Positions 5,095 to 22,141 of a stretch of DNA of 64,000 bases are shown piece after piece (position 1 is the stretch's first letter; each line of letters starts with the position of its first letter). Source of the DNA: Parabacteroides faecis (GTDB lineage Bacteria; Bacteroidota; Bacteroidia; Bacteroidales; Tannerellaceae); NCBI RefSeq assembly GCF_014647375.1, contig NZ_BMPB01000005.1, positions 366,418 through 430,417 on the forward strand, in the 5' to 3' direction. Position numbers and translations under genes: made by a program. Under the pieces are notes generated by a model that was not told the origin of the DNA, did not search any database, and saw nothing but the letters and a program-made list of their open reading frames with translations.

Positions 5095-5700
5095 TCAGGC
5101 CTTTTTGATGTCACTAAGTTCTACCAGCTTGTTCACTATGGCATAGACCGTAAGGGCACTGGCACTGTGTACCTGTAGTTTGCGGGCGATGTTCCTCCGG
5201 TGTGTGATGACGGTGTGGGTGGAGAGAAACAGGCGGTCGGCTATCTCGCGGTTGGTCATACCTTTGACTACACAGACGACGATCTCTTTCTCGCGCGTAC
5301 TCAAAGTTTGTTGTTCGTCTGCGTCATTACCTTCTTCTTTCTTTGCGTGCAGGCGCTCCAGTTTATGCTTCAACTCGTCGGCACTGTCGAAGATGCTGAT
5401 CTGATCGTCGTAATAACGGGTGAGGGAATGGTCCGTGAGTGTATAAAGCAGGGCGAAACACTTCATATCCGGGCATCCGGTCATCTCTTTTAAGTGAGGG
5501 ATCGTGAAATAACCCGGGATAGAAGGGTTGATGATAAGGATATCCGGTTGGTGTGTCCGGAGATCTTCTGTAAGCGATTCGATGGTTGCTATTTCTGAGA
5601 TCTGGATGCGGAGACCTGGCAGGTGCTTCAACATTGTTTCCAACCCGCTGCGGATAATAGCGGAAGGTTCAGCAATAACGATCTTCAAATAAGCACTCAT
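5095..5700 (-). CDS. LuxR-family regulator with degenerate receiver domain (cassette copy 1)
   Basis: The protein has 201 residues. Residues 5-115 follow the response-regulator fold, but the acidic pair is replaced (AEPS instead of a DD motif). The phospho-acceptor Asp is Asn58 (LIINPSIPG), so normal phosphorylation is unlikely. Residues about 132-185 form a LuxR/NarL helix-turn-helix (LSTREKEIVVCVVKGMTNREIA ... HTVITHRRNIARKL). It lies 6 bp after the hemerythrin-like gene. It is a close paralogue of the protein at 8173-8781, nearly identical through the DNA-binding helix. It probably binds DNA in response to a partner or ligand rather than a kinase; the target is unknown. Confidence 0.85.
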   Translation of the reverse strand: MSAYLKIVIAEPSAIIRSGLETMLKHLPGLRIQISEIATIESLTEDLRTHQPDILIINPSIPGYFTIPHLKEMTGCPDMKCFALLYTLTDHSLTRYYDDQISIFDSADELKHKLERLHAKKEEGNDADEQQTLSTREKEIVVCVVKGMTNREIADRLFLSTHTVITHRRNIARKLQVHSASALTVYAIVNKLVELSDIKKA

Positions 5701-5706
5701 AGGTTG

Positions 5707-6399
5707 TTATTTAATTGTTTTTTCTAATGCAAGTATTGCAGGCATGAAGAGGTAGTCTTCCACATGGTTGTGGGAAGCCAGGTCTTGTTCCGTGGCGAAG
5801 ATATCGAAGAGGACACTGTTCAGCAGGTTACTTCCGGGACCGGGGTAATATTTGATCAGGATGTTCTTCAGTTCGACAATCTTCATTTCTATCTGGTCAT
5901 GCCGTTTGCGGAAAATAGAAATATTATATTTCGGATCTTTTACTCCTTTCAACAGATCGCGGACATACGGGAAAACGACTTTCTCTTCGTATGACATATG
6001 TTTATTTACCTCTTCGGCATATTCATCGAAGAAACGCTGGATGACAAAGGCTACGTCCTGCGGACATTCGCCGATCGATTCCAGCAGCTTTCTGCGCAGA
6101 TGCGGCAGCCGGAAATTGAGGAAGTAATCGTGTGCATTATGGAGATAAGTGATCAGAGCCTCGATGGACAGGCATTTGTCCACGTTCATAACCGGAGCGG
6201 ATACATCTTGTGTCAGGAAGTTGACGACTGTGAGAAAAGTACAGGCATCGACACCATTCTGACGGCATACTTCTCCGATGTTCTTTTCACCGAAGCCCAG
6301 GGCAATGCCAAAACGACTCATCACGAGCACCATCGGATAGTTCTCGCATATAAGATCACTCATTTTGTCGGTTTCCCGGTATTTCCCATTTTTATACAT
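5707..6399 (-). CDS. Hemerythrin-like di-iron protein with ScdA_N-like N terminus (cassette copy 1)
   Basis: The protein has 230 residues. Residues about 18-60 resemble the ScdA N-terminal domain (YPMVLVMSRFGIALGFGEKNIGEVC) but lack its Cys pair. The rest is a four-helix hemerythrin/HHE domain with candidate iron ligands His87 and His90 (HNAH), His134 with Glu138 (HMSYEEK), His167 (HDQIEMK) and His210/His212 (HNHVED). Relatives (YtfE/RIC, ScdA) handle NO- or oxygen-damaged iron centres or sense oxygen. An adjacent LuxR-type regulator suggests a sensory role here. Met13 is an alternative start. It is a paralogue of the gene at 8792-9484. Confidence 0.8.
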   Translation of the reverse strand: MYKNGKYRETDKMSDLICENYPMVLVMSRFGIALGFGEKNIGEVCRQNGVDACTFLTVVNFLTQDVSAPVMNVDKCLSIEALITYLHNAHDYFLNFRLPHLRRKLLESIGECPQDVAFVIQRFFDEYAEEVNKHMSYEEKVVFPYVRDLLKGVKDPKYNISIFRKRHDQIEMKIVELKNILIKYYPGPGSNLLNSVLFDIFATEQDLASHNHVEDYLFMPAILALEKTIK

Positions 6400-6909: not shown

Positions 6910-6935
6910 CAAATGTAAGCATAATAATCGATTAT
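6910..6935 (-). promoter_or_regulatory. Antitoxin promoter with a 12-bp palindromic operator candidate
   Basis: On the minus strand the -7 box is TACATTTG (6910-6917). The perfect palindrome ATAATCGATTAT (6924-6935) lies just upstream of it, where a repressor would block the promoter. It overlaps the stop codon of the RidA-like gene. Autoregulation by the antitoxin is an inference. Confidence 0.5.
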
Positions 6936-8077
6936 AACGGAGCATATTCCGGTTCATCTACGGCTATGACGGCAATACATTCGATTTCGACCAACCAACC
7001 CGGGCGGCATACCGGAGCCCGGACGATGAGGTAAGGCATATTCGGATGTTGGGTTTCCATATACTGTTGCACACGGGCGAAGTCGCCGGTATCGCGTATA
7101 TAGACGATGGCTTGCATGATATCGTTCAGGTCGGCACCGGCTTCGTTGAGGAGGGCGGTGATATTTTCGATCATACGCTCCGATTGCCTGATCACATCGC
7201 CCGGATGAACGATCTCGCCATATCTGTCGATACTCGCCGTACCGGATACGAAAACATGACGGCGGTCACCGTATGTGATGGCAACACCTCTTTCAAAGGT
7301 TACTCCGTATTCATAAGTCCGGCTCAGATGGTCGGGAGCATACAGATATTGGATCTGTTCCCGTCCGATACCCGAAACAGCGTACGTATCCATGGTAACG
7401 AACACATTTGTATCCTGATAACGGCCTTCGATACCGGTACTGGCTATGAAATGGGTGTTTTCTGTCAGGTTCTGCGTGGCGAAAACCTCCTTGCGGGCTT
7501 TGACTACCCCCGGATAGTTCACGTCGACATTCTGTACGAATATCCAGGTGCGTATACAGTTATTGGCCAGTGTGCAGTTGGCAGCTGTCAGTTGCATGAT
7601 ATAATCGCGGAAGATAAGCCGTGTCTGATATTCCGAATTGGCAGCACGGTTGCAGAGGTTGGCACCGAACAATTGGCGGTAATTGCCGTGACGTGCTTCG
7701 AACAGATTGCTGGGGAGTACTTGTGTCTGAACTCCGGTCTGGAGCCACACCCAGAGAGCTATCTTTGTCCCGTTCATGGGAGCCTGCTGTACGATGGATA
7801 AAGCACAATACGGGTTGGAACGGTCCTTTTCCATTAACAAAGCAGTCTGGTTGGTTACGTCACTCAGGAAGTAGCGGCGGAATACGGCAGTCGGATTTCC
7901 CGGAAGTTCTTCGACACATTGTTTATATGCCTGCTGTAGGTTCTGTAACTGGGTGGGATAATCTTCCATATAATCTGTTTGCTGGAAGATGACATGATAT
8001 TCCGTAATTCCCTTTTTGGTTTCGAATGAAGTGATCTGTACCTCTGTTTTATCGTATTGTTTTGTTGTTAACTCCAT
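6932..8077 (-). CDS. RidA-fold protein resembling FkbO/Hyg5-type chorismate enzymes (cassette copy 1)
   Basis: This 381-residue cytoplasmic protein has no signal peptide. The C-terminal third (about 255-375) is a clear YjgF/RidA domain (FVSGTASIDRYGEIVHPGD, ENITALLNEAGADLNDIMQAIVY, RAPVCRPGW then LVEIECIAV). The long N-terminal region (VFRRYFLSDVTNQ, CALSIVQQAP) recalls the two-domain FkbO/Hyg5/XanB2 chorismatases, which cut chorismate to hydroxybenzoates or dihydroxycyclohexadiene acids. That similarity is from memory and weaker than the RidA call; the alternative is an enamine/imine deaminase-like protein. A near full-length paralogue is at 9509-10660. Here it has its own promoter. Confidence 0.7.
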   Translation of the reverse strand: MELTTKQYDKTEVQITSFETKKGITEYHVIFQQTDYMEDYPTQLQNLQQAYKQCVEELPGNPTAVFRRYFLSDVTNQTALLMEKDRSNPYCALSIVQQAPMNGTKIALWVWLQTGVQTQVLPSNLFEARHGNYRQLFGANLCNRAANSEYQTRLIFRDYIMQLTAANCTLANNCIRTWIFVQNVDVNYPGVVKARKEVFATQNLTENTHFIASTGIEGRYQDTNVFVTMDTYAVSGIGREQIQYLYAPDHLSRTYEYGVTFERGVAITYGDRRHVFVSGTASIDRYGEIVHPGDVIRQSERMIENITALLNEAGADLNDIMQAIVYIRDTGDFARVQQYMETQHPNMPYLIVRAPVCRPGWLVEIECIAVIAVDEPEYAPL

Positions 8078-8149: not shown

Positions 8150-8180
8150 GAAAAGAAAATAAAACTGACTTGTCAGGTCT
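8150..8180 (-). terminator. Weak terminator after LuxR regulator copy 2
   Basis: On the minus strand an AAAA run, a short stem CTGAC-AA-GTCAG and a TTTTATTTT tract follow the stop codon of the regulator. The stem is short, so termination may be partial and read through into copy 1. Confidence 0.4.
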
Positions 8181-8781
8181 TTTTGATATCATTCAGTTCG
8201 ACCAGTTTGTTTACGATGGCATATACGGTCAGACCGCTGGCACTATGCACCTGTAGCTTTCTGGCGATGTTCCGGCGGTGGGTGATCACGGTATGGGTGG
8301 AAAGGTACAAACGGTCGGCTATTTCCCGGTTGGTCATACCCTTTACGACACAGACGACGATCTCTTTTTCCCGGGCGCTGAGAGTCTGTTGTTCTTCCTC
8401 TTCGGGTTCGGGAGTGACTTCTTCCGCATTCAGCCGCTCCAGCTTATGTTTCAGTTCATCGGGGCTGTCATAAATATTGATCAGGTCGTCATAAGGGCGA
8501 AACATGGCGTGGTCGGTAGCCATGCAGGCAATCGCGATACATTTCATTTCGGGGCAGCCACATTCTTCTTTCAGGTGCTGTATTCCGAAATAGCCGGGAA
8601 GTGAAGGGTTAATGATCAGTACTTCCGGCCGGTGCATGCGTAGACTTTCCACCAGACATTCTGCGGTAGCGATTTCCGTCAACTGGATATGCAGTCCGGG
8701 CAGCCGTTTCAGGATGGTGATCAGCCCGCAGCGAATAATGGAAGATGGCTCTGCAACAGCTATTTTAAAGTTAGTGCTCAT
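8173..8781 (-). CDS. LuxR-family regulator with degenerate receiver domain (cassette copy 2)
   Basis: I start at Met11 of the longest frame because it aligns with the start of its paralogue and removes a 20-bp overlap with the hemerythrin gene. This gives 202 residues. The receiver-like part has AEPS in place of the acidic pair and Asn58 (LIINPSLPG) in place of the phospho-acceptor Asp. A Glu/Pro-rich linker (about 121-131) leads to the LuxR helix-turn-helix (LSAREKEIVVCVVKGMTNREIADRL). The DNA-binding helix is the same as in copy 1, so both may bind the same sites while sensing different things. It lies 10 bp after the hemerythrin gene. Confidence 0.85.
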   Translation of the reverse strand: MSTNFKIAVAEPSSIIRCGLITILKRLPGLHIQLTEIATAECLVESLRMHRPEVLIINPSLPGYFGIQHLKEECGCPEMKCIAIACMATDHAMFRPYDDLINIYDSPDELKHKLERLNAEEVTPEPEEEEQQTLSAREKEIVVCVVKGMTNREIADRLYLSTHTVITHRRNIARKLQVHSASGLTVYAIVNKLVELNDIKKT

Positions 8782-8791
8782 AAAGCAACGG

Positions 8792-9484
8792 TCATTTGAT
8801 TGTTTTTTCAATTGCTAGTACAGCGGGAACGAAGAGGAAATCTTCTACCCGGTTATGAGAAGCCAGATCCTGTTCGGTGGCAAAGATATCGAACAGGACA
8901 CTGTTCAGCAGATAATTGTCGGGTCCGGGATAGTATTTGAGCAGGATATTCTTGAGTTCGACGATCTTCATCTCTATCTGGTCGTGCCGCTTGCGAAAGA
9001 TACTGATATTGTATTTGGAATCTTTCACTCCGTCCTGCAGGTTGCGTACATAAGGGAAGACGATCTTTTCTTCATACGACATATGTTTATGGACCTCGTA
9101 GACATAGTCGTCGAAAAATTTAGTGATGGCGAAGGCGATATCTCCCGGGCATCCGGTGATCGCTTCCGTCAGTTTACGGCGGATGTGCGGCAACCGAAAG
9201 TTCAGGAAATAATCGTGCGCATTATGCAGATAAGTGATCAGCGACCGTAGGGAAAGGCAATTGTTGATCTCGTTGATCGTACCTGAATTTTCTTCCGAAA
9301 GGAAATTAACAACGGTAAGGAACGTGCAGCAATCCACTTCGTTTTGCCGACATACATCCCCGATGTTTTTCTCCCCGAATCCCAGGTCGATACCGAAGCG
9401 GCTCATTACGAGAACCATGGGATAGTTCTCGCAAATCAAGTCGCTCATTTTATCTGTCTCTTTGTATTTTCCTTGTTTATACAT
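8792..9484 (-). CDS. Hemerythrin-like di-iron protein with ScdA_N-like N terminus (cassette copy 2)
   Basis: At 230 residues it has the same length and architecture as the protein at 5707-6399. The ScdA_N-like start (YPMVLVMSRFGIDLGFGEKNIGDVC) is followed by the HHE bundle with HNAHDYF, HKHMSYEEK, RHDQIEMK and SHNRVEDFLF. The second His of the last motif (HNH in copy 1) is Arg here, so one ligand position differs. A di-iron centre that senses or handles oxygen or NO is the family expectation. It lies between the RidA-like gene (24-bp gap) and the regulator (10-bp gap), probably at the 3' end of the long haem/porin operon. Confidence 0.8.
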   Translation of the reverse strand: MYKQGKYKETDKMSDLICENYPMVLVMSRFGIDLGFGEKNIGDVCRQNEVDCCTFLTVVNFLSEENSGTINEINNCLSLRSLITYLHNAHDYFLNFRLPHIRRKLTEAITGCPGDIAFAITKFFDDYVYEVHKHMSYEEKIVFPYVRNLQDGVKDSKYNISIFRKRHDQIEMKIVELKNILLKYYPGPDNYLLNSVLFDIFATEQDLASHNRVEDFLFVPAVLAIEKTIK

Positions 9485-9508: not shown

Positions 9509-10660
9509 TTATAAACAGGGGTATTGTGGAAAGTCTGCCGGAATAACGGCAATACATTCCGTTTCGATCAGCCATCCCGGGCGGCATACTGGTGCCAGTA
9601 CGATCAGGTGGGGCATATCCGGGTGATGGGTGCGGATATAGAGGTTCACTTCCTCGTAATCTGCCGGGTCGCGAAGATAGACGATAGCCTGCATGATATC
9701 GGCAACGGAAGCTCCGGCCTCCTGCAGCAGGACGCTGATATTCTCCATCATCCGTTCAGTCTGTTTCAAAATATCTCCGGGATGGACGATCTCCCCTCGG
9801 TTATCGATACTGGCTGTTCCCGACAAGAATATCTGTTTCCTGTCACCGTACGAAACGGCTGTGCCCCGTTCAAAGGTGACACCGTATTCATACGTCGGGT
9901 TCAAATGGGTAGGGGCGTAGAGGAACTGTATCTGTTCCGGTTGCAGGCCGTCTACCGTATAGGCATCCATTTGTACCAATACCTCCGGATCGGCATGGCG
10001 TCCTTCTATCCCGGTACTGGTTATGTAGTGCGTTTTCTCCGTCAGATTCTGTGTGATGAAAACCTCTTTGCGGGCTTTTACGACACCGGCGTAGTTTACA
10101 TCTACATTTTGTACGAAAAACCAGGTCCGGATACAGTCGGCTGCCAGCGTACAATGTTGTTCGGTCAGTTGCAGTACATAATCGTTCAGTAACAGACGTG
10201 TCTGATATTCGGATGTGGCAGCTTTGTTGTATGCACCGCCGGTCCACAGATGGCGATACTTATTATGAGAAGCCTCAAACATACCGGAATTGTAAGTCTC
10301 CGTAGTCATATCGGTTTGTAAATAACCCCATAAGGCTATTTTAGTACCGTTTAGCGGAGCTTGTTGTACGATCGATAATGCACAGAACGGGTTTTCACAT
10401 TCCCGTTCCATCAGCAGTTCCGTTTGATTTGCCGCATCGCTCAGGAAATACCGCCGGAATACGGCTACGGCTTTACCGGCTTCTTCTTTTGTTACTGTTT
10501 CGTATGCTTTTTCTAATTTATCCAATTGTTTGGTAAAAGGCAGCGAAGGGTTGGTAACGGAAAATAGTATATGATATTCCGTCACCCCTCCCTTGCCTTC
10601 AAAAGAACAAATTTGAGCGTGAATGAAGTCTTGTTCGTATATTTTTGTTTTGAATGCCAT
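9509..10660 (-). CDS. RidA-fold protein resembling FkbO/Hyg5-type chorismate enzymes (cassette copy 2)
   Basis: The 383-residue paralogue of the protein at 6932-8077 shares VFRRYFLSDAANQTELLMER, CALSIVQQAPLNGTKIALWGYLQT, QNVDVNYAGVVKARKEVF and the RidA segment (FLSGTASIDNRGEIVHPGD ... APVCRPGW then LIETECIAV). The differences are spread along the whole length, so the duplication is old. It begins 10 bp after the haem c lipoprotein gene with no promoter in between, so it is read as part of the upstream operon. A chorismate-derived aromatic product that acts in redox or iron handling would fit the context, but this is inference. Confidence 0.7.
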   Translation of the reverse strand: MAFKTKIYEQDFIHAQICSFEGKGGVTEYHILFSVTNPSLPFTKQLDKLEKAYETVTKEEAGKAVAVFRRYFLSDAANQTELLMERECENPFCALSIVQQAPLNGTKIALWGYLQTDMTTETYNSGMFEASHNKYRHLWTGGAYNKAATSEYQTRLLLNDYVLQLTEQHCTLAADCIRTWFFVQNVDVNYAGVVKARKEVFITQNLTEKTHYITSTGIEGRHADPEVLVQMDAYTVDGLQPEQIQFLYAPTHLNPTYEYGVTFERGTAVSYGDRKQIFLSGTASIDNRGEIVHPGDILKQTERMMENISVLLQEAGASVADIMQAIVYLRDPADYEEVNLYIRTHHPDMPHLIVLAPVCRPGWLIETECIAVIPADFPQYPCL

Positions 10661-12626: not shown

Positions 12627-14054
12627 TTATAATGAATTGATAAATGTGATTAACGCATCGCGATCTTCTTTGCTCATTTTCTTGAATAAATTCTTGGAAG
12701 CCTCTCCTTCACCTCCGTGCCACATGATGGCTTCAACCAGATTGCGGGCACGTCCGTCATGCAGATAGTAGGTATGTCCGTTGACTGTCTCTTGAAGGCC
12801 GATTCCCCATAAAGGAGTGGTACGCCATTCATTGCCGCGTGCCAGACCGCTGACATAGTTGTCGTTCAAGCCAACTCCCATAATTTCAGACCCCATATCG
12901 TGTAATAGGAAGTCTGAATATGGATGGATGGTTTGTCCTCCCAGCCAAGGTAATTGTGTCCCATTCAGTAAAGTAGCACCACGTGTCTTGGTGTGCAGAG
13001 TCGTTACGTGGCATAGGTGACATTTGGCTTCGTAGAATTTTTGTTCTCCTTTGATTACCTGCGGATTGTTGACATTTCTTCGGGCCGGTACGCCCAGGGC
13101 ATGCAGATAAAGGTCTACATTTTCCATCTCTTCCGTTGAAACGTCTAACTGGTCATACGAAAGGCCCATCATGCTGCCCTGATCCATTTGTATCTGTCCT
13201 TCGCAGATTTCTTCCGGATAACGGCTGTTGGTTACACCCATATCGCTGGAGAAACCCAATTCGATGGTCAAGTCGGCATGTTGCGCCTTATTGCCGGACA
13301 GACCCAGACGCATGACACCTCGTTCGGAAATGTAGTTGCAACGACCGCTGATGCCATATTCAGGATAATTACTTTTGGCGGCAAGGGCTTCGATCTCTGT
13401 CGGGTCGAGTGCCATCATCTGCCCCATGCCGACATGGCGTAAAGGAATACGTACAGTACAGAACAAATCTTTCGGAGCGATACTGTCGGCATACCATTCT
13501 GAAATCGAATATTCAGGTTTGCATAACTCGTATGTTTCGCCATCAGGAAACGAGAACGTTTCGTAAGTATATTGAACGGAAAGTTTTCCTTCCGGCTTTA
13601 CACCATATATGGCCTGGTCGTGCAATACTCGGCCGTAGTTTCTGAATTGTGCCCCGTTTCTTTTGGCGATATAAACTAGCATAGAGGAAAATCCGTAGCT
13701 TCCGGAGCCTCCTTCGCTCCATAATGTAGGTTTGGTTCGTCCGGCATTACGATGGCAGCTACCGCAGGAATAGCCTGCATACACGGGGCCGAGGCCGCCG
13801 CCTGTGCCATTACTACTAGTACGTACGTCGTCATACAATCTATCTCCGTTGTTAAACCGGGTTGAATATTTGCCGGAAACCCAGTCTGCTTCTGTGTCGT
13901 ACGCTACGGATGAGTTGAGGAAGATGGTCGAAGTCCCGGCAGAGAGTGCATAATTGTTAGGAACTTCCACATCATCCATATCTATTCCTTCTTTGTCGCA
14001 GGAACAGAGTGGAACGAGGAACAACAGAGGAAAAAACAGATATCGAAATTTCAT
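12627..14054 (-). CDS. Di-haem oxidoreductase (DUF1111 family), lipoprotein
   Basis: The protein has 475 residues with lipobox ...LVPLCSC at about 19. Two haem c motifs are present: CGSCHRNAGRT (about 97-107) and CHLCHVTTLHT (about 346-356). The C-terminal region has HDMGSEIMGVGL, EWRTTPLWGIGL and LHDGRARNLVEAIMWHGGE, all characteristic of DUF1111 (DHOR, a peroxidase-like family). Members are often encoded beside imelysin-type iron proteins, as here. It is probably a periplasm- or surface-exposed redox enzyme; the electron donor and substrate are unknown. Confidence 0.82.
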   Translation of the reverse strand: MKFRYLFFPLLFLVPLCSCDKEGIDMDDVEVPNNYALSAGTSTIFLNSSVAYDTEADWVSGKYSTRFNNGDRLYDDVRTSSNGTGGGLGPVYAGYSCGSCHRNAGRTKPTLWSEGGSGSYGFSSMLVYIAKRNGAQFRNYGRVLHDQAIYGVKPEGKLSVQYTYETFSFPDGETYELCKPEYSISEWYADSIAPKDLFCTVRIPLRHVGMGQMMALDPTEIEALAAKSNYPEYGISGRCNYISERGVMRLGLSGNKAQHADLTIELGFSSDMGVTNSRYPEEICEGQIQMDQGSMMGLSYDQLDVSTEEMENVDLYLHALGVPARRNVNNPQVIKGEQKFYEAKCHLCHVTTLHTKTRGATLLNGTQLPWLGGQTIHPYSDFLLHDMGSEIMGVGLNDNYVSGLARGNEWRTTPLWGIGLQETVNGHTYYLHDGRARNLVEAIMWHGGEGEASKNLFKKMSKEDRDALITFINSL

Positions 14055-14118
14055 ATTGATTTTTCTTTATTTTTGATCAGATCTTATTGTTTTGAAATCC
14101 ATCATCAAACATTCCAAA

Positions 14119-14188
14119 GCCTTGGAGTAGCCTGGTCGCATAACCAGGCTACTTCAAGGCATTATAGCAATGGTGAAAAAGTTTCACC
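14119..14188 (-). other. Two intercistronic stem-loops between imelysin and DUF1111 genes
   Basis: The larger stem pairs 14119-14136 with 14143-14160 (18 bp, one G-U) around a 6-nt loop. A smaller one pairs GGTGAAA (14172-14178) with TTTCACC (14182-14188). Neither is followed by a long T-run on the minus strand. They look like mRNA processing, stability or partial-termination elements that set different levels for the genes on either side. Confidence 0.6.
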
Positions 14189-14198
14189 TGGCTCTTTA

Positions 14199-15386
14199 TT
14201 AGTTGTTTACTTTACGCGGTTTTCCGTCTTTGAACAACAGGTATTCCAGCGTGTGATAACCACGTACATTTTGTGCGGCTTCTACATCTGCGCTGTCATC
14301 GTCTTCGTCCCATTCGATTTGGTCGAAGTTTCCGGATTGCAGGACACTTACAATCATGTTCTGGTCCAAAGGCCAGCTGTCCATATTCGGGTCAAGATTT
14401 TCTGTGTCAACCGGACCAAACAGGAATCCCTCGCTCTTTTCCCACGGTTCGCGGGCCACAAGCCATGCTTCGCTGGCTGCCTCGAAATTGCTGTCGCTCG
14501 GGCTATTTCTGAACTGTTTAACTGCTTCAAACAGAGCTGCGTTCTTTTCCATCAATGATTTGTAGGTAGGCAATACAACATAGTCGGTATATTGAACCAG
14601 GATGGCTTCCAACTTGCTGTCGTTCGGTGTGTTTTCATAGGCGGCACGTACGGCTGCTTTTACTTCTTTCAGCGTGTTTTCCAATGAAAGACAAGCCTCT
14701 TGAGCGGCTAACGCTTCATCGCTGTTGATGTTGTTACGGAAAGGCTGTGGGATATTTTGGATAGCGTCGGCTGCTGCATGGATAGCATCGTCCAATTGCT
14801 TGTTCATATCGGCATCCATTGCTTCAACCAATTTGTAGATGGAGCTTGTCTGAATGTCGTTCTGGTCGTTGGTGTCGTTGCTTGAAACTGTTCCGTAGTA
14901 AGAGTTACGGATTGACCAGATGTTGTTGGTATAGTCGTCGCGTGAGTGCCAGCTATACCACGATTCTACGGCATAAAGTGCACCTTCTTTGTCTCCTGAA
15001 TTGTATTTGTCGAGCGGGTCACCGATTTTGGCACTACCTACTTCGTTGGCGATTTCGGCACATTTGTCGAAGATTTGTTCGATACCGTTCAGTGCCGTCT
15101 TGATGCTTGTTTCGCCTCCGATGTTATGTTTCTTGAAAGCTTCAGCATAAGGGCCTGTACCTTTGTAGTCTTCATTCCAATATTTGTATAAGTTGGCAGC
15201 GTCGTTTTTCAACAGGCTGGCAACGTTATACATGTAGTTACCCCATGCACCTGCATTCTCTGCAGAATAGTCAAGGTCTGCCGGAGTTTCTGTATCCGGT
15301 CCGTTGTTGTCATCGTCAGAACAAGCACTGAAAGTCAATGCTATCCCTAACATAAGTGTTGCAAATGATAAAAATTTCTTTTTCAT
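14199..15386 (-). CDS. Imelysin-family (IrpA/M75) lipoprotein
   Basis: The protein has 395 residues with lipobox LTFSACSDDDN (Cys at about 22) followed by an Asp/Asn/Thr-rich linker. The helical body ends with the family signature GxHxxE (GYHTLEYLLF, about 378-387). Imelysin-like proteins (IrpA, EfeO/EfeM relatives) are periplasmic or surface proteins involved in iron acquisition; they are not active peptidases. An Asp/Glu-rich stretch just before the motif (WDEDDDSADVEAAQN) might bind metal. It sits between the first porin and the di-haem enzyme, an arrangement typical of iron-regulated imelysin clusters. Confidence 0.85.
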   Translation of the reverse strand: MKKKFLSFATLMLGIALTFSACSDDDNNGPDTETPADLDYSAENAGAWGNYMYNVASLLKNDAANLYKYWNEDYKGTGPYAEAFKKHNIGGETSIKTALNGIEQIFDKCAEIANEVGSAKIGDPLDKYNSGDKEGALYAVESWYSWHSRDDYTNNIWSIRNSYYGTVSSNDTNDQNDIQTSSIYKLVEAMDADMNKQLDDAIHAAADAIQNIPQPFRNNINSDEALAAQEACLSLENTLKEVKAAVRAAYENTPNDSKLEAILVQYTDYVVLPTYKSLMEKNAALFEAVKQFRNSPSDSNFEAASEAWLVAREPWEKSEGFLFGPVDTENLDPNMDSWPLDQNMIVSVLQSGNFDQIEWDEDDDSADVEAAQNVRGYHTLEYLLFKDGKPRKVNN

Positions 15387-15423
15387 TTTCTTTTGTTATT
15401 AAATAGGTTTATATTCTTTCTTC

Positions 15424-16752
15424 TTATTTACTCAGAAACCAGCCTACGTAGGCAACGGCCAGGCTGAACTCGTTTTCACTGTTATATTTTCCTCCGCCGA
15501 TTTTGCGTGTCGAATAATCTGCTTTGACAACCAGGTTAGGAAGTGCATACCAGTTTAAACCGGCTGTCCACATGCTGACTTTGGTGCGCGGGTCCATGGT
15601 CTGTCTGCCTTCACCCTTTTCTTGCGGATTGTAATATTCGAAACGTGCAAACGGATAGATTACAGGTACTTTCTTGTTGTCTTTGAAGACGGAACGAAGG
15701 TTGACACCTACTTCGCCACCATAGCTGACTGCGTTTTTGGCAACCGGAGTAAGGCGGCTGTAAGGAGACGTATTACTTTGTGAACCGATTTTGCCGGAAA
15801 GGGCTTCGGCATTGCTTAAACTGCCGTAAATCATGTTTCCGCGGGCGGTTACATATTTGTTTTTATATTGAAGGTCTGCCGTATAAATGCGTAGCGGACT
15901 TTTTCCGATGCTGGCGAATGTCTGGGGTTTGTCGGAGTTCGCACCCACATTATTACAATAATAGAAGGAAGCGCCTACTCTTAATCCGGGAACACCTTCA
16001 TAATTTAAACGGCCTACATAAGCAGGAGAGGTGAAATTGTCTGTTTCGAAAATACCCTGTTTGCCTCCAGCAACCCATTCGTCGCGCGAGAATCCGCAGG
16101 CGTTTAATCCGGCAACAACCAACGCTTCATAACTGAAGCGAGTATAATCCCTACCAAATGTACCGAACACTTCGATACCGTTTTCATGCCATGTGGAGGG
16201 GATAAGCATTGTTTCCCCTTCCGGACGTGATGTGCCGAAGAAATTGATAGGTTCATGATGGGCGTTAGTCAAACCAACCGGAACGATAATATGTCCTACC
16301 CGGACATTAAATGCGGGATGGATTAACCGTGTGATATGAAACTGTTCCAGTGCAACTTCGCCACCTTTTTCGACTTCTGTTTCGTATTCTCCGTTTTCTG
16401 TATTTTCAAGTTCATAGGCAGTACCTGTACCACCTGCTTCGAATTCAATTTCTGCTCCTAATATCCATTTAGGATTAAATTTATAGTCGAAAGCTACAAC
16501 GAAACGAGGGATGGATATTGAGTTTCTGTTTGTTTTTGCATTTCCATTATTCCCCCCGTAAAAGCGGTTGATACCATAATCCATAAAATTCGCAAGGATT
16601 TCCCCATAACCGCCAAATCTAAATTTATCATAACCGTTGGCATAAATTTCTGCCGACTTTTCTACAGCTGTTGGCTCTTCGTTGCTTTGTGCATAGGCTG
16701 TTGCATAAGAACTAAGTAGAGTGATAGCCAACAGGTTTGTTAATTTTCTCAT
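15424..16752 (-). CDS. Outer-membrane porin, first gene of the redox/metal operon
   Basis: The protein has 442 residues with a signal peptide (MRKLTNLLAITLLSSYATAYAQ). The mature protein is a barrel with FGGYGEILANFMDYG near the start and LEQFHITRLIHPAFNVRVGHIIVPVGLTN in the middle, as in OprP-like porins of Bacteroidetes. It ends in ...AVAYVGWFLSK, less aromatic at the last position than usual. It precedes imelysin by 37 bp and is the promoter-proximal gene of the minus-strand operon, so its regulation by the -7 box at 16772-16779 and the dyad at 16834-16849 should apply to the whole unit. Confidence 0.7.
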   Translation of the reverse strand: MRKLTNLLAITLLSSYATAYAQSNEEPTAVEKSAEIYANGYDKFRFGGYGEILANFMDYGINRFYGGNNGNAKTNRNSISIPRFVVAFDYKFNPKWILGAEIEFEAGGTGTAYELENTENGEYETEVEKGGEVALEQFHITRLIHPAFNVRVGHIIVPVGLTNAHHEPINFFGTSRPEGETMLIPSTWHENGIEVFGTFGRDYTRFSYEALVVAGLNACGFSRDEWVAGGKQGIFETDNFTSPAYVGRLNYEGVPGLRVGASFYYCNNVGANSDKPQTFASIGKSPLRIYTADLQYKNKYVTARGNMIYGSLSNAEALSGKIGSQSNTSPYSRLTPVAKNAVSYGGEVGVNLRSVFKDNKKVPVIYPFARFEYYNPQEKGEGRQTMDPRTKVSMWTAGLNWYALPNLVVKADYSTRKIGGGKYNSENEFSLAVAYVGWFLSK

Positions 16753-16802: not shown

Positions 16803-16833
16803 TCGCATATAGTAGGTAAAAATTGACAGGGCT

Positions 16834-16849
16834 TACCTATTTGTAGGTA
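16834..16849. promoter_or_regulatory. Crp/Fnr-like dyad TACCT-N6-AGGTA (site 1)
   Basis: TACCTATTTGTAGGTA is a perfect 10/10 match to the dyad shared by several promoters here. It lies between divergent promoters. Its centre is about 73 bp upstream of the predicted porin-operon start (minus strand) and about 38 bp upstream of a plus-strand start given by TAACTTTG at 16868-16875. Confidence 0.6.
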
Positions 16850-16867
16850 TTTGTAGTGTTTATTCAC

Positions 16868-16968
16868 TAACTTTGTCATTTCTCCGTCGCCGAGGGGCGG
16901 GCAGGTCAGTGGTATATGTTACGGGAGAGAACCTGCTGGCAGAATAGCTGCGCTGGTGATTTTTTGTC
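16868..16968 (+). ncRNA. Possible structured transcript upstream of the twin small RNAs
   Basis: A perfect -7 box TAACTTTG (16868-16875) opens a GC-rich stretch with no reading frame. It contains nested pairing: TCTCCGT with ACGGGAGA, CGCC-GAGG-GGCG, and alternatively GCAGGT with ACCTGC. It ends in a weak stem (GCAG/CTGC) and TTTTTT. It shares no clear sequence with the two RNAs downstream. It could be a third small RNA or part of a regulatory region; support is limited to promoter plus foldability. Confidence 0.35.
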
Positions 16969-17005
16969 CTGTAATCCCTACTAATAGTTAGAAATGAGTC
17001 CATTT

Positions 17006-17052
17006 TACATATATATAGGTATTGTGGCCTTAGGGTAGTGCCCGTATATTTG
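17006..17052 (+). promoter_or_regulatory. Activator dyad and promoter of small RNA 1
   Basis: TACATATATATAGGTA (17006-17021) matches the dyad at 9 of 10 arm positions. After exactly 23 bp comes TATATTTG (17045-17052), a perfect -7 box. TTG at 17022-17024 is the -33 element. The dyad centre falls at roughly -40 to -44, where class II Crp/Fnr activators bind. Confidence 0.65.
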
Positions 17053-17055
17053 CAC

Positions 17056-17230
17056 CATCAATTAAGTTTTACTATTAGTATAATCGTCCTGACCAAAACC
17101 CCGATTTGTTGATTTTTATGTACACCTATTATTTAAGGTAAAATACCCAAGTGGAAGGGAGTTTTTTTATTGGTTGTCCCTTTCATATAAAAGATGAGCC
17201 ATCCTGTGAAGAATGGCTCTTTTTATTTTT
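17056..17230 (+). ncRNA. Twin small RNA 1
   Basis: The predicted transcript of about 175 nt has no credible reading frame. A 5' block ACTATTAGTATAATCG plus AAAACC about 8 nt later is shared with RNA 2. A hairpin pairs GGAAGGGA (17153-17160) with TCCCTTTC (17177-17184) around a loop containing TTTTTATTGGTTG. The terminator stem GAGCCAT (17196-17202)/ATGGCTC (17213-17219) has loop CCTGTGAAGA and a T-run. RNA 2 keeps both loops while its stems have different sequences that still pair, which is covariation in favour of a functional RNA. Confidence 0.7.
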
Positions 17231-17301
17231 TCGTTTTTTCTTTAGTACAGAAAGCAATTTGCTTAATATAACACAAAGTAGGTAACAGACACCTCCCTTT
17301 T

Positions 17302-17348
17302 TACTCTATTATAGGTATTGTGTACTTTCCTAGCCGCCTCTATCTTTG
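17302..17348 (+). promoter_or_regulatory. Activator dyad and promoter of small RNA 2
   Basis: TACTCTATTATAGGTA (17302-17317) matches 8 of 10 arm positions of TACCT-N6-AGGTA. Then 23 bp separate it from the perfect -7 box TATCTTTG (17341-17348). The spacing is identical to that of small RNA 1 and of the cation-efflux gene. Confidence 0.62.
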
Positions 17349-17352
17349 CAAA

Positions 17353-17515
17353 TGTAAAAAGTAACACTATTAGTATAATCGCTATATCAAAACCTTTTTG
17401 CTAATTATGTAAGCATATAAGATGATTAAACGTATGTCGGAAAGTTTTTATTGGTTGTTTCCGACATAAAAAAGGGGCTCCCCTGTGAAGGATGGTCCCT
17501 TTTTTATTTTTTTGT
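17353..17515 (+). ncRNA. Twin small RNA 2
   Basis: The predicted transcript of about 160 nt shares ACTATTAGTATAATCG, AAAACC and the loop TTTTTATTGGTTG with RNA 1. Its hairpin is a perfect 10-bp stem (ATGTCGGAAA at 17434-17443, TTTCCGACAT at 17458-17467), different in sequence from that of RNA 1. The terminator stem GGGGCT/GGTCCC keeps the loop core CCTGTGAAG and ends in a long T-run (to about 17515). It lies about 125 nt after RNA 1 and before pflB. The exposed, conserved loop is the likely target-binding site. Confidence 0.7.
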
Positions 17516-17584
17516 TATTATTTATAATCTATCCCCTGTGATACCTAAAAGAGGCTATATACTATTATTCTCAGTCCTTTTTTG

Positions 17585-17669
17585 TAACTATTTGTAGGCA
17601 TTTTGACCGTTTCCTGCATATCAAGTATATATGACCAGTTTCTTGTCCCATATAAAAGCTGTACCTTTG
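17585..17669 (+). promoter_or_regulatory. pflB promoter region with one weaker dyad
   Basis: The dyad-like TAACTATTTGTAGGCA (17585-17600, 8 of 10) is followed after 25 bp by TATATATG (17626-17633, one mismatch from TAnnTTTG). Further on is the perfect -7 box TACCTTTG (17662-17669) with a TTTC 19 bp before it. Two tandem starts are plausible; the second gives a 30-nt leader to the ATG at 17705. Confidence 0.5.
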
Positions 17670-17704
17670 TATCGAAATTAAAACCGAAGTAAACAAAGAT
17701 AGGT

Positions 17705-19945
17705 ATGAAGTTTGAAAACGAGAACTGGGCGCAGTTCAAAGGCGAAATTTGGAAAAGAGAGATTAATGTAAGGGATTTTATCCAGAACAATTATAAACCT
17801 TATGAAGGGGATGATTCTTTCCTGAAGGGTTCCTCGGATAAGACGAAAAAGGTTTGGGATAAACTGACCGAAATGTTTAAGGTAGAAAGGGAGAAAGGTG
17901 TTTACGATGCTGAAACTAAATTACCGCAGGGGATAGATACGTACGGTCCCGGGTATATCGACAAGGAAAATGAGGTCATTGTCGGTTTGCAGACAGACGC
18001 TCCGCTGAAACGCGGTATTTTCCCGAAATGCGGTGTCCGCATGGTAGAAAACAGCTTGACTGCTTATGGCTATGAGCTGGACCCGATGACAAAAGAAATC
18101 TTCACGAAATACAGAAAGACGCATAACGAAGGCGTATTCTCAGCTTATACGGATGAAATGATTGCAGCACGTCGCTCCGCTATCATCACCGGTCTGCCGG
18201 ATGCTTACGGACGCGGACGTATCATCGGTGACTACCGTCGTGTAGCATTGTATGGTACTGAAATCCTGATCACAGAGAAGAAGAACTATCTGAAACGACT
18301 CGATATTCAGGAACTGACGGAAGAGATTATCCAGAGCCGTGAGGAGATATCCGAACAGATCAAGGCCTTGAAGGCTTTCGAAAAGATGTGTGCAAGTTAC
18401 GGTTTCGATGTGACACAGCCGGCTAAGAATGCACGCGAAGCCGTTCAGTTTGTCTATCTGGCTTACCTGGCTGCTGTAAAAGACCAGGATGGTGCGGCTA
18501 TGTCGTTGGGACGTACTTCTACTTTCCTCGATATTTATCTTGAAAAAGATATCCGTGAGGGCAAATTGACGGAAGAAGAAGCACAGGAGTTGATCGACCA
18601 GTTCATCATCAAACTGCGTATTGTCCGCTTCCTGCGTACTCCGGAATATAACGATCTGTTCTCCGGCGATCCTGTGTGGGTGACTGAATCTTTAGGCGGA
18701 CAAGGTGTCGACGGCCGTTCTCTGGTGACAAAGACATCTTACCGTTATCTGCATACATTATATAACCTTGGCCCGGCTCCGGAACCTAACCTGACAGTGC
18801 TGTGGTTCAATAATGCTCCTGAAAACTGGAAACGTTTCTGTGCAAAGGTTTCTATCGATACTTCCGCTATCCAGTATGAGAACGACGATCTGATGCGTCC
18901 GGATTATGGCGACGATTATGGTATTGCCTGCTGTGTATCTCCGATGAAGATCGGTAAGCAGATGCAATATTTCGGTGCACGTGCCAACCTGGCTAAATGT
19001 TTGCTGTATGCGATCAATGGCGGACGTGACGAACGTTCAGGTGCGCAGGTAGCTCCGAAGTTCGAGCCGATCACCAGCGAATACCTCGATTATAACGAAG
19101 TAATGGAGAAATACGAACAGATGATGCGCTGGCTGGCAAAGGTATATGTCAATGCTCTGAAGATCATCCATTATATGCATGATAAGTATGCTTACGAAGC
19201 ATTCGAGATGGGCTTGCACGACGGTCATGTGGAACGTATCCGTGCGACAGGTATTGCCGGTCTTTCTATCGTGGCCGACTCATTGGCGGCTATCCGCGAT
19301 ACGAAGGTGAAGGTGATCCGTGATGAACGCGGACTGGCTGTCGGTTTTGAGCGCGAAGGCGATTATGTTCCTTTCGGAAACAACGATGACCGTACGGACA
19401 GTATTGCTGTGGATATTACTGAAATGTTCATGGAATATCTGCGTCAGCACCAGACATACCGTAACGCTACTCCGACACAGTCTATCCTGACCATTACTTC
19501 TAATGTCGTATATGGAAAGAAGACAGGTGCTACGCCTGACGGACGTGAAGGCGGTACGCCGTTTGCTCCGGGTGCCAATCCGATGAACGGACGCGATACC
19601 AAGGGGGCGATTGCCGCACTGGCTTCTGTTGCCAAGTTGCCGTTCCAGCATGCACATGACGGTATCTCTTATACATTTGCCGTTTCTCCGTCTACTTTAG
19701 GTAAAGAACGTGATATTCAGATAGCCAATATGGTAGGCTTGCTGGATGGTTACTTTACTCCTGATGGCGGTCAACATCTGAACGTGAACGTTTTCGATAA
19801 GGAATTACTGTTGGATGCTATGGACCATCCTGAAAAATATCCGCAGCTGACCATCCGTGTTTCCGGTTATGCCGTGAACTTCGTGAAACTGACACGCGAA
19901 CAGCAGTTGGATGTCATTTCAAGAACAATCAATCACTCACTTTAA
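17705..19945 (+). CDS. pflB: Pyruvate formate-lyase (formate C-acetyltransferase)
   Basis: This 746-residue cytoplasmic glycyl-radical enzyme converts pyruvate and CoA to acetyl-CoA and formate, the main anaerobic pyruvate route. The adjacent catalytic cysteines are Cys409-Cys410 ([14 protein letters not shown]) and the radical glycine is Gly721 (RVSGYAVNF). Length and the C-terminal ISRTINHSL end fit the PflB branch rather than the diol-dehydratase-like glycyl radical enzymes. Its activase gene follows 105 bp downstream. The radical is destroyed by oxygen, so the dyad-controlled promoter region and the nearby peroxide defence genes make biological sense. Confidence 0.95.
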
Positions 19946-20047
19946 AAGTTGACAGTTGACAAGTGATAGTTGACAGTTAGAGGATGCGTAAATGTGTCCT
20001 GGCTGTCATCTGTCATCTGTCATCTGTTGACTATCACTTGTCATCTG
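19946..20047. repeat. Dispersed TGACA/TGTCA inverted repeat, copy A
   Basis: The left arm (19946-19975) is built from GTTGACA/GTGATA units and the right arm (20003-20047) from TGTCATC units. The cores 19954-19975 and 20024-20045 pair at 19 of 22 positions. It fills the pflB-pflA gap, so the mRNA would carry a long hairpin. Related copies lie at 37312-37338 and 39646-39726. Confidence 0.75.
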
Positions 20048-20050
20048 CTT

Positions 20051-20773
20051 ATGGAGGGGAAAATTCATTCTTTAGAAAGTTTCGGTACAGTTGATGGACC
20101 CGGAATTCGCTTCGTCGTTTTTATGCAGGGATGTCCGCTTCGTTGTCTCTATTGCCATAATCCGGATACCTGGGACAGCCGGGGAGGTGCTAAATACCAA
20201 TTGTCACCGGAAGAACTTCTGGCGGAAGTCTTGCGCTACAAAAATTTTATAGCTAAAGGTGGTGTGACTGTCACCGGAGGAGAGCCTTTGTTGCAGGCTG
20301 AATTCCTTACCGCTTTTTTCCGTCTTTGCCGGGAAGCCGGTATTCATACGGCATTGGATACTTCCGGTTATATCTGTACACCGAAAGCTTTGGAAGTGTT
20401 GGATTATGTCGACCTGGTCCTGCTGGATATAAAAACGATCGATCCCGAATTACATCCCCGGTTAACGGCAGTGAAGCTGGATAATACGTTACGTTTCCTG
20501 GATGAACTGGAGAAACGCGGTGTTCCTGTATGGATCCGCCATGTCATCGTTCCCGGACTGACTGATAATGACGATGCGCTGAATAAACTGGCTGAATATA
20601 TCAGCCGCTATAAAATGGTGCAGAAAGCAGAGCTGTTGCCTTATCATACAATGGGTGCTTATAAATATGAAGCACAAGGAATCGAATACAAATTAAAAGA
20701 CGTGGAACCTCTGTCTGCCGAACGTCTGGCAAATGCCAAAGAGATATTTAAGAAACAGGGTATTACCGTGTGA
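20051..20773 (+). CDS. pflA: Pyruvate formate-lyase activating enzyme (radical SAM)
   Basis: I start at the ATG at 20051 (240 residues), where homology begins. The longer frame would run through the inverted repeat. The radical-SAM iron-sulfur motif is Cys28-x3-Cys32-x2-Cys35 (QGCPLRCLYCHNPDTW). GGVTVTGGEPLLQ (about 78-90) and ALDTSGY follow, as in PflA. It installs the glycyl radical on PflB using S-adenosylmethionine. The two genes are probably co-transcribed. Confidence 0.93.
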   Translation: MEGKIHSLESFGTVDGPGIRFVVFMQGCPLRCLYCHNPDTWDSRGGAKYQLSPEELLAEVLRYKNFIAKGGVTVTGGEPLLQAEFLTAFFRLCREAGIHTALDTSGYICTPKALEVLDYVDLVLLDIKTIDPELHPRLTAVKLDNTLRFLDELEKRGVPVWIRHVIVPGLTDNDDALNKLAEYISRYKMVQKAELLPYHTMGAYKYEAQGIEYKLKDVEPLSAERLANAKEIFKKQGITV

Positions 20774-20775
20774 CC

Positions 20776-21081
20776 CTATTCAATCCGTTCCCTGTGAATT
20801 TTTACCGGTTGTCTACGGATTTTGTTAACGATACGGATGCTGTCGTTCTCGATACTCGTTACGTCTCCCTGACAGTTGGTGAAATAGACGTAATTCCCCA
20901 TATCCATGAACCGGTATACTTTGCAACCATCATGTTCGAATAGATACTCGACTTTATAACTGGGGTTATTATCAGGAGCTGATTGAGCTATAGGTCTTCC
21001 TGCCAGGCCACATGCTGTCAAACCGGCCATATAGGTTAGTAGTGCACCTGCCGAAAAAATGAAAAAACTTATTCTTCTCAT
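20776..21081 (-). CDS. Small lipoprotein, DUF4884-like
   Basis: The protein has 101 residues with lipobox GLTACG (Cys at about 24). The mature part KVEYLFEHDGCKVYRFMDMGNYVYFTNC resembles DUF4884, a small beta domain found in Bacteroidales lipoproteins. The C terminus is basic (RIVNKIRRQPVKIHRERIE). It converges on pflA, with stops only 2 bp apart and no terminator visible between. Function unknown. Confidence 0.7.
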   Translation of the reverse strand: MRRISFFIFSAGALLTYMAGLTACGLAGRPIAQSAPDNNPSYKVEYLFEHDGCKVYRFMDMGNYVYFTNCQGDVTSIENDSIRIVNKIRRQPVKIHRERIE

Positions 21082-21110
21082 ATTCTTTTTCTTTTAGTTT
21101 GCTTTGTGTC

Positions 21111-21118
21111 CAAAGATA
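21111..21118 (-). promoter_or_regulatory. -7 box of the small lipoprotein gene
   Basis: TATCTTTG on the minus strand is a perfect TAnnTTTG about 30 bp before the start at 21081. The dyad at 21159-21174 lies 40 bp further upstream and could act on this promoter too. Confidence 0.5.
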
Positions 21119-21158
21119 ACGAAATCCAAAGACCGGAGGATAAAACTGTGTGACATTT

Positions 21159-21205
21159 TACCTACAATCAGGTAGATTTTTATTGCTAGGAAAAACATAG
21201 TTTTG
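21159..21205 (+). promoter_or_regulatory. Perfect activator dyad and promoter of the cation-efflux gene
   Basis: TACCTACAATCAGGTA (21159-21174) is a 10/10 match to TACCT-N6-AGGTA. A 23-bp spacer leads to the perfect -7 box TAGTTTTG (21198-21205). This is the same layout as at both small RNAs. Because transcription should start near 21210, the gene cannot start at the TTG at 21203. Confidence 0.68.
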
Positions 21206-21235: not shown

Positions 21236-22141
21236 ATGAATATGGAACAACATCATCATGACCATCATCACGAAATAACCTCTTTGAATAAAGCTTTTAT
21301 CATCGGTATTACCCTGAACCTGGCATTTGTTGTAGCCGAGTTTGCTGCGGGCTTCTGGTATAATTCGCTCGGTTTGCTATCCGATGCCGGACATAACCTG
21401 GGGGATGTCGCCAGCCTGGTACTGGCTATGCTGGCTTTCCGGCTGGCAAAGGTACATCCGACGGCCAGTTATACCTATGGGTATAAAAAAAGCACGGTAT
21501 TGGTCTCCCTGCTAAATGCGGTCATTCTGTTGGTCGCTGTCGGCATTATTATAGCTGAGAGCATAACGAAACTGTTTCATCCCCGTCCGGTAGAAGGAGA
21601 TGCAATCGCCTGGGTTGCGGGGATTGGGGTTGTTATCAATGCAGTTACGGCATGGCTTTTTATGAAGGATAAGGATAAAGACCTGAATGTGAAAGGGGCT
21701 TATCTGCATATGGCGGCGGATGCGCTGGTGTCTGTCGGAGTCGTTATTTCCGGGATTGTCATTGCACATACAGGATGGTTTATTATCGACCCGGTTATCG
21801 GATTGATCATAGCTTTAGTCATCATCTATTCTACTTGGGGATTGTTGCGTGACAGCTTACGTCTTTCGCTCGACGGCGTTCCTGCCGGGACCGATATTGA
21901 AAAGGTGGAAAAGGCTATGCATGCCGTGGAAGGTGTACAGGGTGTCCGTCACTTGCATATCTGGGCGATCAGCACGACTGAAACAGCCTTGACCGCGCAT
22001 GTCTCGATCAACGATCTGTCTGATATGGAACGCATCAAACAGGAGATCAAACACGAGCTTCAACATGTTGGTATACATCATGCCACTCTGGAGTTCGAAA
22101 CCTCGAAAATCAAGGGTGAGAGCCTGTGCTGGCCGGATTGA
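21236..22141 (+). CDS. Cation diffusion facilitator (CzcD/ZitB-type zinc exporter)
   Basis: The start is ATG 21236 (302 residues; 21242 is also possible). The N terminus is His-rich (HHHDHHHE), a cytosolic metal-collecting tail. Six hydrophobic segments follow. The transport-site motifs are in TM2 (HNLGD, preceded by SDAG) and TM5 (HMAADALVSVG), the HD-HD pattern of zinc-type exporters. The cytoplasmic C-terminal domain has VRHLHIWAISTTETALTAHVSI. It exports Zn2+ or a similar divalent metal against protons. Metal choice within Zn/Cd/Co cannot be fixed. The same dyad and spacing as at the small RNAs control it. Confidence 0.88.
   Translation: MNMEQHHHDHHHEITSLNKAFIIGITLNLAFVVAEFAAGFWYNSLGLLSDAGHNLGDVASLVLAMLAFRLAKVHPTASYTYGYKKSTVLVSLLNAVILLVAVGIIIAESITKLFHPRPVEGDAIAWVAGIGVVINAVTAWLFMKDKDKDLNVKGAYLHMAADALVSVGVVISGIVIAHTGWFIIDPVIGLIIALVIIYSTWGLLRDSLRLSLDGVPAGTDIEKVEKAMHAVEGVQGVRHLHIWAISTTETALTAHVSINDLSDMERIKQEIKHELQHVGIHHATLEFETSKIKGESLCWPD

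Follow-up and report, generated by a model that had tools for sequence, protein, structure and literature searches.

Putative operators of a CdhR-type iron-starvation activator before small RNA, pflB and cation-efflux genes in Parabacteroides faecis

Which protein acts through the TACCT-N6-AGGTA dyads that precede two small RNAs, pflB and a cation-efflux gene in Parabacteroides faecis? The DNA analysed was a stretch of 64 000 nucleotides (RefSeq assembly GCF_014647375.1, contig NZ_BMPB01000005.1, forward-strand positions 366 418–430 417), referred to below as the window. A sequence-only reading had described the dyads as a single regulon with a fixed 23 bp spacing to the promoter, had listed small RNA (sRNA) and cation-efflux targets and had proposed a Crp/Fnr-family regulator responding to a redox, NO or metal signal. 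The regulon, the spacing, both kinds of target and a metal signal were supported; the Crp/Fnr identity was not. Judged from sequence, the dyads are likely to serve as operators for a CdhR-type activator of the iron-starvation response.

All five dyads were found as described, at 16834 (10/10 positions), 17006 (9/10), 17302 (8/10), 17585 (8/10) and 21159 (10/10), and the distance to a perfect TAnnTTTG was exactly 23 bp at three of them (17006 to 17045, 17302 to 17341 and 21159 to 21198). The nearest + strand TAnnTTTG lies 18 bp from the 16834 dyad, and 61 bp separate the 17585 dyad from the −7 box of pflB. With up to two mismatches allowed, the window contains 35 dyads compared with 19.9 ± 4.2 in shuffled sequence. 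A position weight matrix (PWM) built from 34 feoAB sites gave scores of 20.2 for 17006 and 19.0 for 16834, clear of the maxima in five shuffled windows (4.6–10.7, one strand); the dyads at 17302 (9.8), 21159 (5.6) and 17585 (5.5) are supported by orthologs and spacing, not by their own score.

The excess that was expected in a genome-wide scan was absent from the window's own genome (6.66 Mb) and present over 124 genomes of the family. In the single genome the exact dyad occurred at 11 places (control, 12), and the composite of dyad, spacing and TAnnTTTG with up to three mismatches gave 52 + 47 matches against 57 + 74 in the control; with counts at the control level, this genome by itself would speak against the regulon, and one genome cannot decide. 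Family-wide, when no more than one mismatch was allowed, the composite was matched 213 times compared with 27 for the reversed control, in 101 and 23 genomes, respectively. When the distance was left free between 8 and 38 bp, 58 of 83 distinct perfect dyads stood 22–24 bp from TAnnTTTG, about eight being expected; smaller groups were seen at 33 bp (five dyads) and at 36–38 bp (12 dyads). Sites recur in orthologous promoters of feoAB, cation-efflux, sRNA and pflB genes and, judged by this conservation, the motif and its fixed spacing are real and under selection. The PM2 promoter motif of Bacteroides thetaiotaomicron (elements at −10 and −30) was considered and is a different element.

A logo of 123 sites refined the pattern to AATACCTA-N4-TAGGTATTG-N20-TAnnTTTG, the dyad being a 20 bp palindrome. 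A second, weak dyad (at most four mismatches in 12) was present 31–32 bp upstream in 27 of 125 sites, each other distance being found at most four times; two divergent promoter pairs (L162 and L218) enter this count from both sides. The window dyads at 16975 and 17006 are an example of such a 31 bp tandem. Those at 16834 and 16803 form another, the centre of the perfect dyad lying 31 bp (about three helical turns) upstream of the weaker dyad of the porin promoter. The porin composite (C5:383189-383235:-) has three mismatches, the corresponding dyad in the relative L198 reads TACCTACAATATGCGA, and a porin-like gene at L212 (G060) is likewise preceded by a site with 23 bp spacing. Close counterparts of the cation-efflux composite were found in G041, G044, G045, G047 and G070, with a gene of the cation diffusion facilitator (CDF) type downstream in L198 (G041).

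Across 95 sites at 90 loci, 35 sites stand before a feoAB-like gene and 18 before an sRNA. Other targets, at these loci and at 30 order-level ones, include CDF transporters, hemerythrin-domain genes, flavodoxin and, assigned by eye, TonB-type receptors; the imelysin-operon porin and TetR, DUF2249 and DUF1858 genes were also found. Pfam confirmed one example each of FeoA/FeoB, flavodoxin, HmuY, DUF2249, DUF1858 and TetR. The feoAB site of the window's genome (C11:24055) has one mismatch, and in this genome the flavodoxin and HmuY composites are weak, with three mismatches each; upstream of the HmuY gene (PF14064, C5:244 kb) this weak 23 bp composite is accompanied by an exact dyad. A cluster of dyads at C5:205–260 kb was largely discarded, since many lay in coding sequence or resembled terminators; those left belong to HmuY, flavodoxin and AraC-type genes. 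For pflB, 73 of 80 loci were used (six were dropped for a short upstream region, plus L086); a significant site (p < 0.05) was present in 23 of the 73 upstream regions, three to four being expected, and in 11 the composite occurs at 22–23 bp, including those of Paraprevotella and other Bacteroidales.

These targets match the gene set published for iron depletion (PMC10434189, Lewis and Gui 2023; this and the other papers cited by PMC number were available as excerpts). According to that paper, iron depletion raises the hemerythrin/CdhR operon about sevenfold (PG1236-37) and 16- to 20-fold (BT0519-0520), and flavodoxin, hmu and P. gingivalis feoB also rise; the pflAB genes of B. thetaiotaomicron (BT4735-38 group) are up 2.6- to 8.3-fold, and PFOR and ferredoxin are down. 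The same source describes hmuYR as regulated by CdhR, calls the mechanism unclear and knowledge of regulators scarce. Because the sites are also linked to pairs of PF00196 and hemerythrin-domain genes, a linkage read directly from the genomes, a CdhR-type protein was taken as the candidate regulator.

The site, written as the 7-2-7 inverted repeat TACCTAT-N2-ATAGGTA, resembles NarL heptamers (TACYYMT). In 12 of 20 chosen genomes a PF00196 protein of about 200 amino acids is encoded no more than 17 kb from a site, at about 1.2 kb in five of these; its gene is the second of an operon in which the first encodes a hemerythrin-domain protein. Both pairs in the window have this layout, the hemerythrin-domain gene directly before the gene with the LuxR-type helix-turn-helix (HTH), and PF01814 and PF00196 score above their cut-offs; in L162, L218, L305 and L332 the pair stands directly behind a site. 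Using the PWM made from feoAB sites only, a site at p < 0.05 was found before 18 of 38 hemerythrin-regulator operons (including L162, chosen because of its site) and before four of 76 control genes, which were drawn from loci fetched for Crp/Fnr proteins; at a score of at least 10 the counts were 14/38 and 1/76. A first control (4/23 at p < 0.05, two of the four being one AraC-gene site) was set aside as biased because 34 of its 41 source loci had been chosen by pattern. Among 198 genomes of the order, the regulator was matched in 43 of 50 genomes with a site and in 95 of 148 others (p = 0.002); the association is modest because a strict site test was combined with a loose regulator profile, which at E 1e-20 also admits HTH-only matches.

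The receiver-like domain of the regulator falls below the Pfam cut-off (PF00072, 16.8 versus 30.2 bits) and has an Asn aligned to the phospho-Asp of VraR. Among 46 paired regulators, Asn occupies this position in 39 (two of which belong to the degenerate class described below), Asp in two and other residues in five; as a rule the paired regulators lack the phospho-accepting aspartate of an orthodox response regulator. No histidine kinase gene was noticed beside the pairs in the loci viewed, where no systematic search was made.

In a degenerate second class of seven pairs (L337, L339, L341, L348, L355, L356 and L358), decay has reached the di-iron ligands as well as the receiver site. Every one of the seven has other residues in place of hemerythrin histidines 90 and 134, and the receivers have diverged too; this joint degeneration suggests co-evolution of partner and regulator. 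The regulator HTH was also found in one longer frame (316–350 amino acids) at G148:C31:6187-6432, with similar frames in G202, G261, G264 and G305; these are possibly fused hemerythrin-regulator proteins, as described for P. intermedia.

Several observations weigh against assigning the sites to a CdhR-type activator. Some pattern matches belong to a separate sulfur-gene motif, so that the site counts are not pure. Seven of the 50 site genomes gave no regulator match, 95 of the 138 regulator genomes have no strict site, and 20 of the 38 hemerythrin-regulator operons, both window pairs included, have no significant site by PWM; pair 2 lies inside a tight gene run and pair 1 follows a 532 bp gap without a site. 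For L162, L340 and L344, which are among the 18 positives, the best dyad is that of a divergent sRNA. From the literature, B. thetaiotaomicron feoB was 5.9-fold up on iron depletion but with P 0.25 (PMC10434189), and repression of mfa1 and luxS by CdhR has been described (PMC4082711), so that it is not only an activator. Orthology to PG1237/BT0520 is based on gene order and domain content.

The separate motif reads approximately TACC-N8-GGTA and has the same 23 bp spacing (L009, L168, L171, L176, L182, L194, L145 and L146). Behind it lie cysteine-synthase-like (PF00291), Cys/Met-metabolism (PF01053) and ABC-transporter genes (PF00005, MetN-like by eye), and its sites probably constitute a different, sulfur-related regulon.

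Binding at −41 by a dimer of the Crp/Fnr family (HcpR, PgRsp-like or Cur/CrpPg-like) now appears improbable. The dyad centre near −41 is indeed activator-like and, together with the 16 bp dyad geometry, Crp-like, G000 has three PF13545 proteins above the cut-off, and in Bacteroides pflBA has been predicted to be controlled by Crp/BT4338 (PMC3878776). However, the −41 position is common to other activator families and is therefore not diagnostic, and the distribution of Crp/Fnr types does not follow the sites. The HcpR/PgRsp-like types are patchy: an L037-type query was matched in 44 of 124 genomes, those among the matches listed with at least 60% identity came from ten genomes, and five genomes that keep sites (G046, G048, G059, G060 and G066) have neither type. 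In G063 (84% complete), which has three sites, the only PF00027 protein seen is of the universal type. This universal Crp-type protein, related to 2GAU, was present in 18 of 18 genomes examined, a few being identified by frame length alone. A TATGTT-N4-AACATA dyad (one to three mismatches) lies near the start of its own gene in all 20 genes read (21 were fetched and L289 was left out), whereas a TACCT-N6-AGGTA dyad (two mismatches) was near only three of the 20; the former is the published consensus of Cur/BT4338, more fully wwwTATGTTnTAnAACATAwww (PMC6989115, PMC3878776). Most of these genomes also encode other short cyclic nucleotide-binding proteins (about 190–210 amino acids), which were not individually excluded as the regulator.

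Two observations concern the Crp/Fnr genes themselves. In L046 and L281–L300 the universal Crp-type gene has at its start a TATGTTATATAACA-like dyad, with one to three mismatches to the BT4338 consensus; in L046 this dyad lies downstream of a TAnnTTTG-like box, possibly indicating autorepression. In the L037 promoter (about 985–1035) the inverted repeat GTATCGGAAATG...CATTTCCGATAC surrounds the −7 box of the HcpR/PgRsp-like gene and is a possible operator or hairpin.

An iron-starvation set of targets is classically controlled by a repressor, and another iron regulator (of the Fur, DtxR or Rrf2 family) might bind the sites as a repressor, overlapping −33; this is judged unlikely, since the fixed 22–24 bp spacing and the helically phased second dyads suit an activator and the site is unlike Fur boxes. 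The binding protein could also be another of the LuxR/NarL type, PF00196 matches being numerous (59 in G000). It might come from the second paralog class of hemerythrin-paired regulators, which with its degenerate hemerythrin is present in several of these genomes, or be a response regulator of the orthodox, phosphorylated kind. The pairs directly behind sites, however, belong to the class whose receiver site reads Asn-Pro, and such a protein is an unlikely alternative to the CdhR-type regulator.

The candidate regulator is of a type already known from CdhR; the operator, the tandem arrangement, the spread and the sRNAs were not found described within CC-licensed PMC papers. CdhR/PG1237 with PG1236 of P. 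gingivalis and BT0519-0520 of B. thetaiotaomicron share the two-gene layout of hemerythrin and response-regulator-like protein (PMC10434189). The excerpts on CdhR deal with control of hmuYR, mfa1 and luxS, and no operator consensus was found in them (PMC10434189, PMC4082711); the system described here differs in its defined operator, spacing, tandem sites and pflB, cation-efflux and sRNA targets. NarL/NarP and VraR likewise have the PF00196 HTH, VraR being the best PDB profile match, but in the regulator here the phospho-aspartate is replaced by Asn. SsoR of Shewanella is also an atypical response regulator in iron homeostasis, from a different lineage and described as acting with Fur (PMC12442407). 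Cur/BT4338 is another dyad activator of Bacteroidales with pflBA as a predicted target (PMC3878776), but its motif is the one given above and it responds to carbon limitation (PMC6989115, PMC3878776).

The 26 sRNA sequences aligned have in common a conserved core of about 70 nucleotides, which the consensus fold leaves unpaired, and a terminator in which seven pairs covary. In 393 genomes of the order, searched with stricter filters and 12 candidates scored per genome, the sequence model gave clear matches in four genomes only, all from the window's family; outside the family four of the 393 genomes gave marginal matches (E 3e-4 to 9e-4). Of five Rfam matches with E up to 1, not one reached the gathering score. 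BTnc231 was rejected as a homolog (the overlapping Bacteroides model scored 19.8 bits against a gathering score of 80.4), and the SnoA RNA is a different element. RyhB and FnrS of E. coli are sRNAs under an iron- or anaerobiosis-responsive regulator; the sRNAs here are unrelated to them in sequence, are clearly matched only in one family and match no Rfam family at the gathering score. The two sRNAs may have a RyhB-like role, in which an sRNA pairs with mRNAs of iron proteins and represses them.

Coordinates of the features are given in the table. Two side observations were made in the window: a GC-rich, hairpin-forming segment (16885–16960) lies between the perfect dyad and sRNA 1 and was not found in the close relative G041, and two RidA-like proteins (PF01042) of about 380 amino acids (6932–8077 and 9509–10660, − strand) are each encoded upstream of a hemerythrin-regulator pair, at 24 bp for pair 2 and 532 bp for pair 1.

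Table. Features of the window (positions counted from its first nucleotide).
Feature	Position	Strand	Details
Perfect dyad TACCTATTTGTAGGTA	16834..16849	.	Between porin operon and sRNAs; kept in relative L198; PWM 19.0
Half-degenerate dyad TACCTACTATATGCGA	16803..16818	-	23 bp before porin-operon TAATTTTG (16779-16772)
Upstream tandem dyad TCCCTACTAATAGTTA	16975..16990	+	31 bp before sRNA 1 dyad; kept in L198
sRNA 1 dyad TACATATATATAGGTA	17006..17021	+	-7 box TATATTTG (17045-17052), spacing 23; orthologous sRNA promoters
sRNA 2 dyad TACTCTATTATAGGTA	17302..17317	+	-7 box TATCTTTG (17341-17348), spacing 23; orthologs L052, L198
pflB upstream dyad TAACTATTTGTAGGCA	17585..17600	+	-7 box 17662-17669
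Perfect dyad TACCTACAATCAGGTA, cation-efflux promoter	21159..21174	+	23 bp before TAGTTTTG (21198-21205)
sRNA 1, divergent paralog, intrinsic terminator	17053..17234	+	R1 match 17064-17136, 43 bits; ends inferred from promoter and terminator
sRNA 2, conserved core, intrinsic terminator	17349..17512	+	R1 match 17359-17427, 72 bits; ends inferred
pflB, pyruvate formate-lyase	17705..19945	+	TIGR01255
pflA, pyruvate formate-lyase activating enzyme (radical SAM)	20051..20773	+	Named from context
CDF	21236..22141	+	TIGR01297
Porin, imelysin (weak EfeO similarity) and di-haem oxidoreductase genes	12627..16752	-	Head of gene run leading to hemerythrin-regulator pairs
CdhR-type regulator 1, proposed regulator	5095..5700	-	LuxR/NarL HTH; receiver Asn58 at phospho-Asp position
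Hemerythrin-domain partner 1	5707..6399	-	PF01814; weak RIC similarity
CdhR-type regulator 2	8173..8784	-	PF00196 above cut-off
Hemerythrin-domain partner 2	8792..9484	-	PF01814

From these sites and their gene neighbourhoods we infer the following mechanism. The activator would be a LuxR/NarL-family protein with a receiver-like domain that lacks the phospho-aspartate, encoded beside a hemerythrin-domain (di-iron) protein. A dimer would bind AATACCTA-N4-TAGGTATT centred near −41, touch the −33 region and bring in RNA polymerase in the class II manner; some promoters, above all those of the sRNAs, may bind a second dimer on the same helical face, 31–32 bp upstream of the first. Iron shortage, probably sensed via the hemerythrin partner, would switch on feoAB, the porin/imelysin operon, cation efflux, the iron-sparing pflBA and the two sRNAs, which in turn likely adjust iron-using genes.

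If this is true, one-component and two-component logic would be blended in iron sensing. For iron sensing in Bacteroidales, the mechanism of CdhR regulation is called unclear in PMC10434189; a defined operator, a fixed spacing, a short list of targets and a candidate pair make the question directly testable in gut commensals. The regulon also offers a reason for the rise of pyruvate formate-lyase and flavodoxin at low iron and reveals a compact sRNA family that shares its control. Tentatively, then, a hemerythrin (di-iron) sensor and a phosphorylation-independent, response-regulator-like activator may fill a Fur-like role throughout Bacteroidales, with tandem operators three helical turns apart and, in the family of P. 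faecis, dedicated iron-response sRNAs that would help to swap iron-rich pyruvate metabolism for pyruvate formate-lyase.

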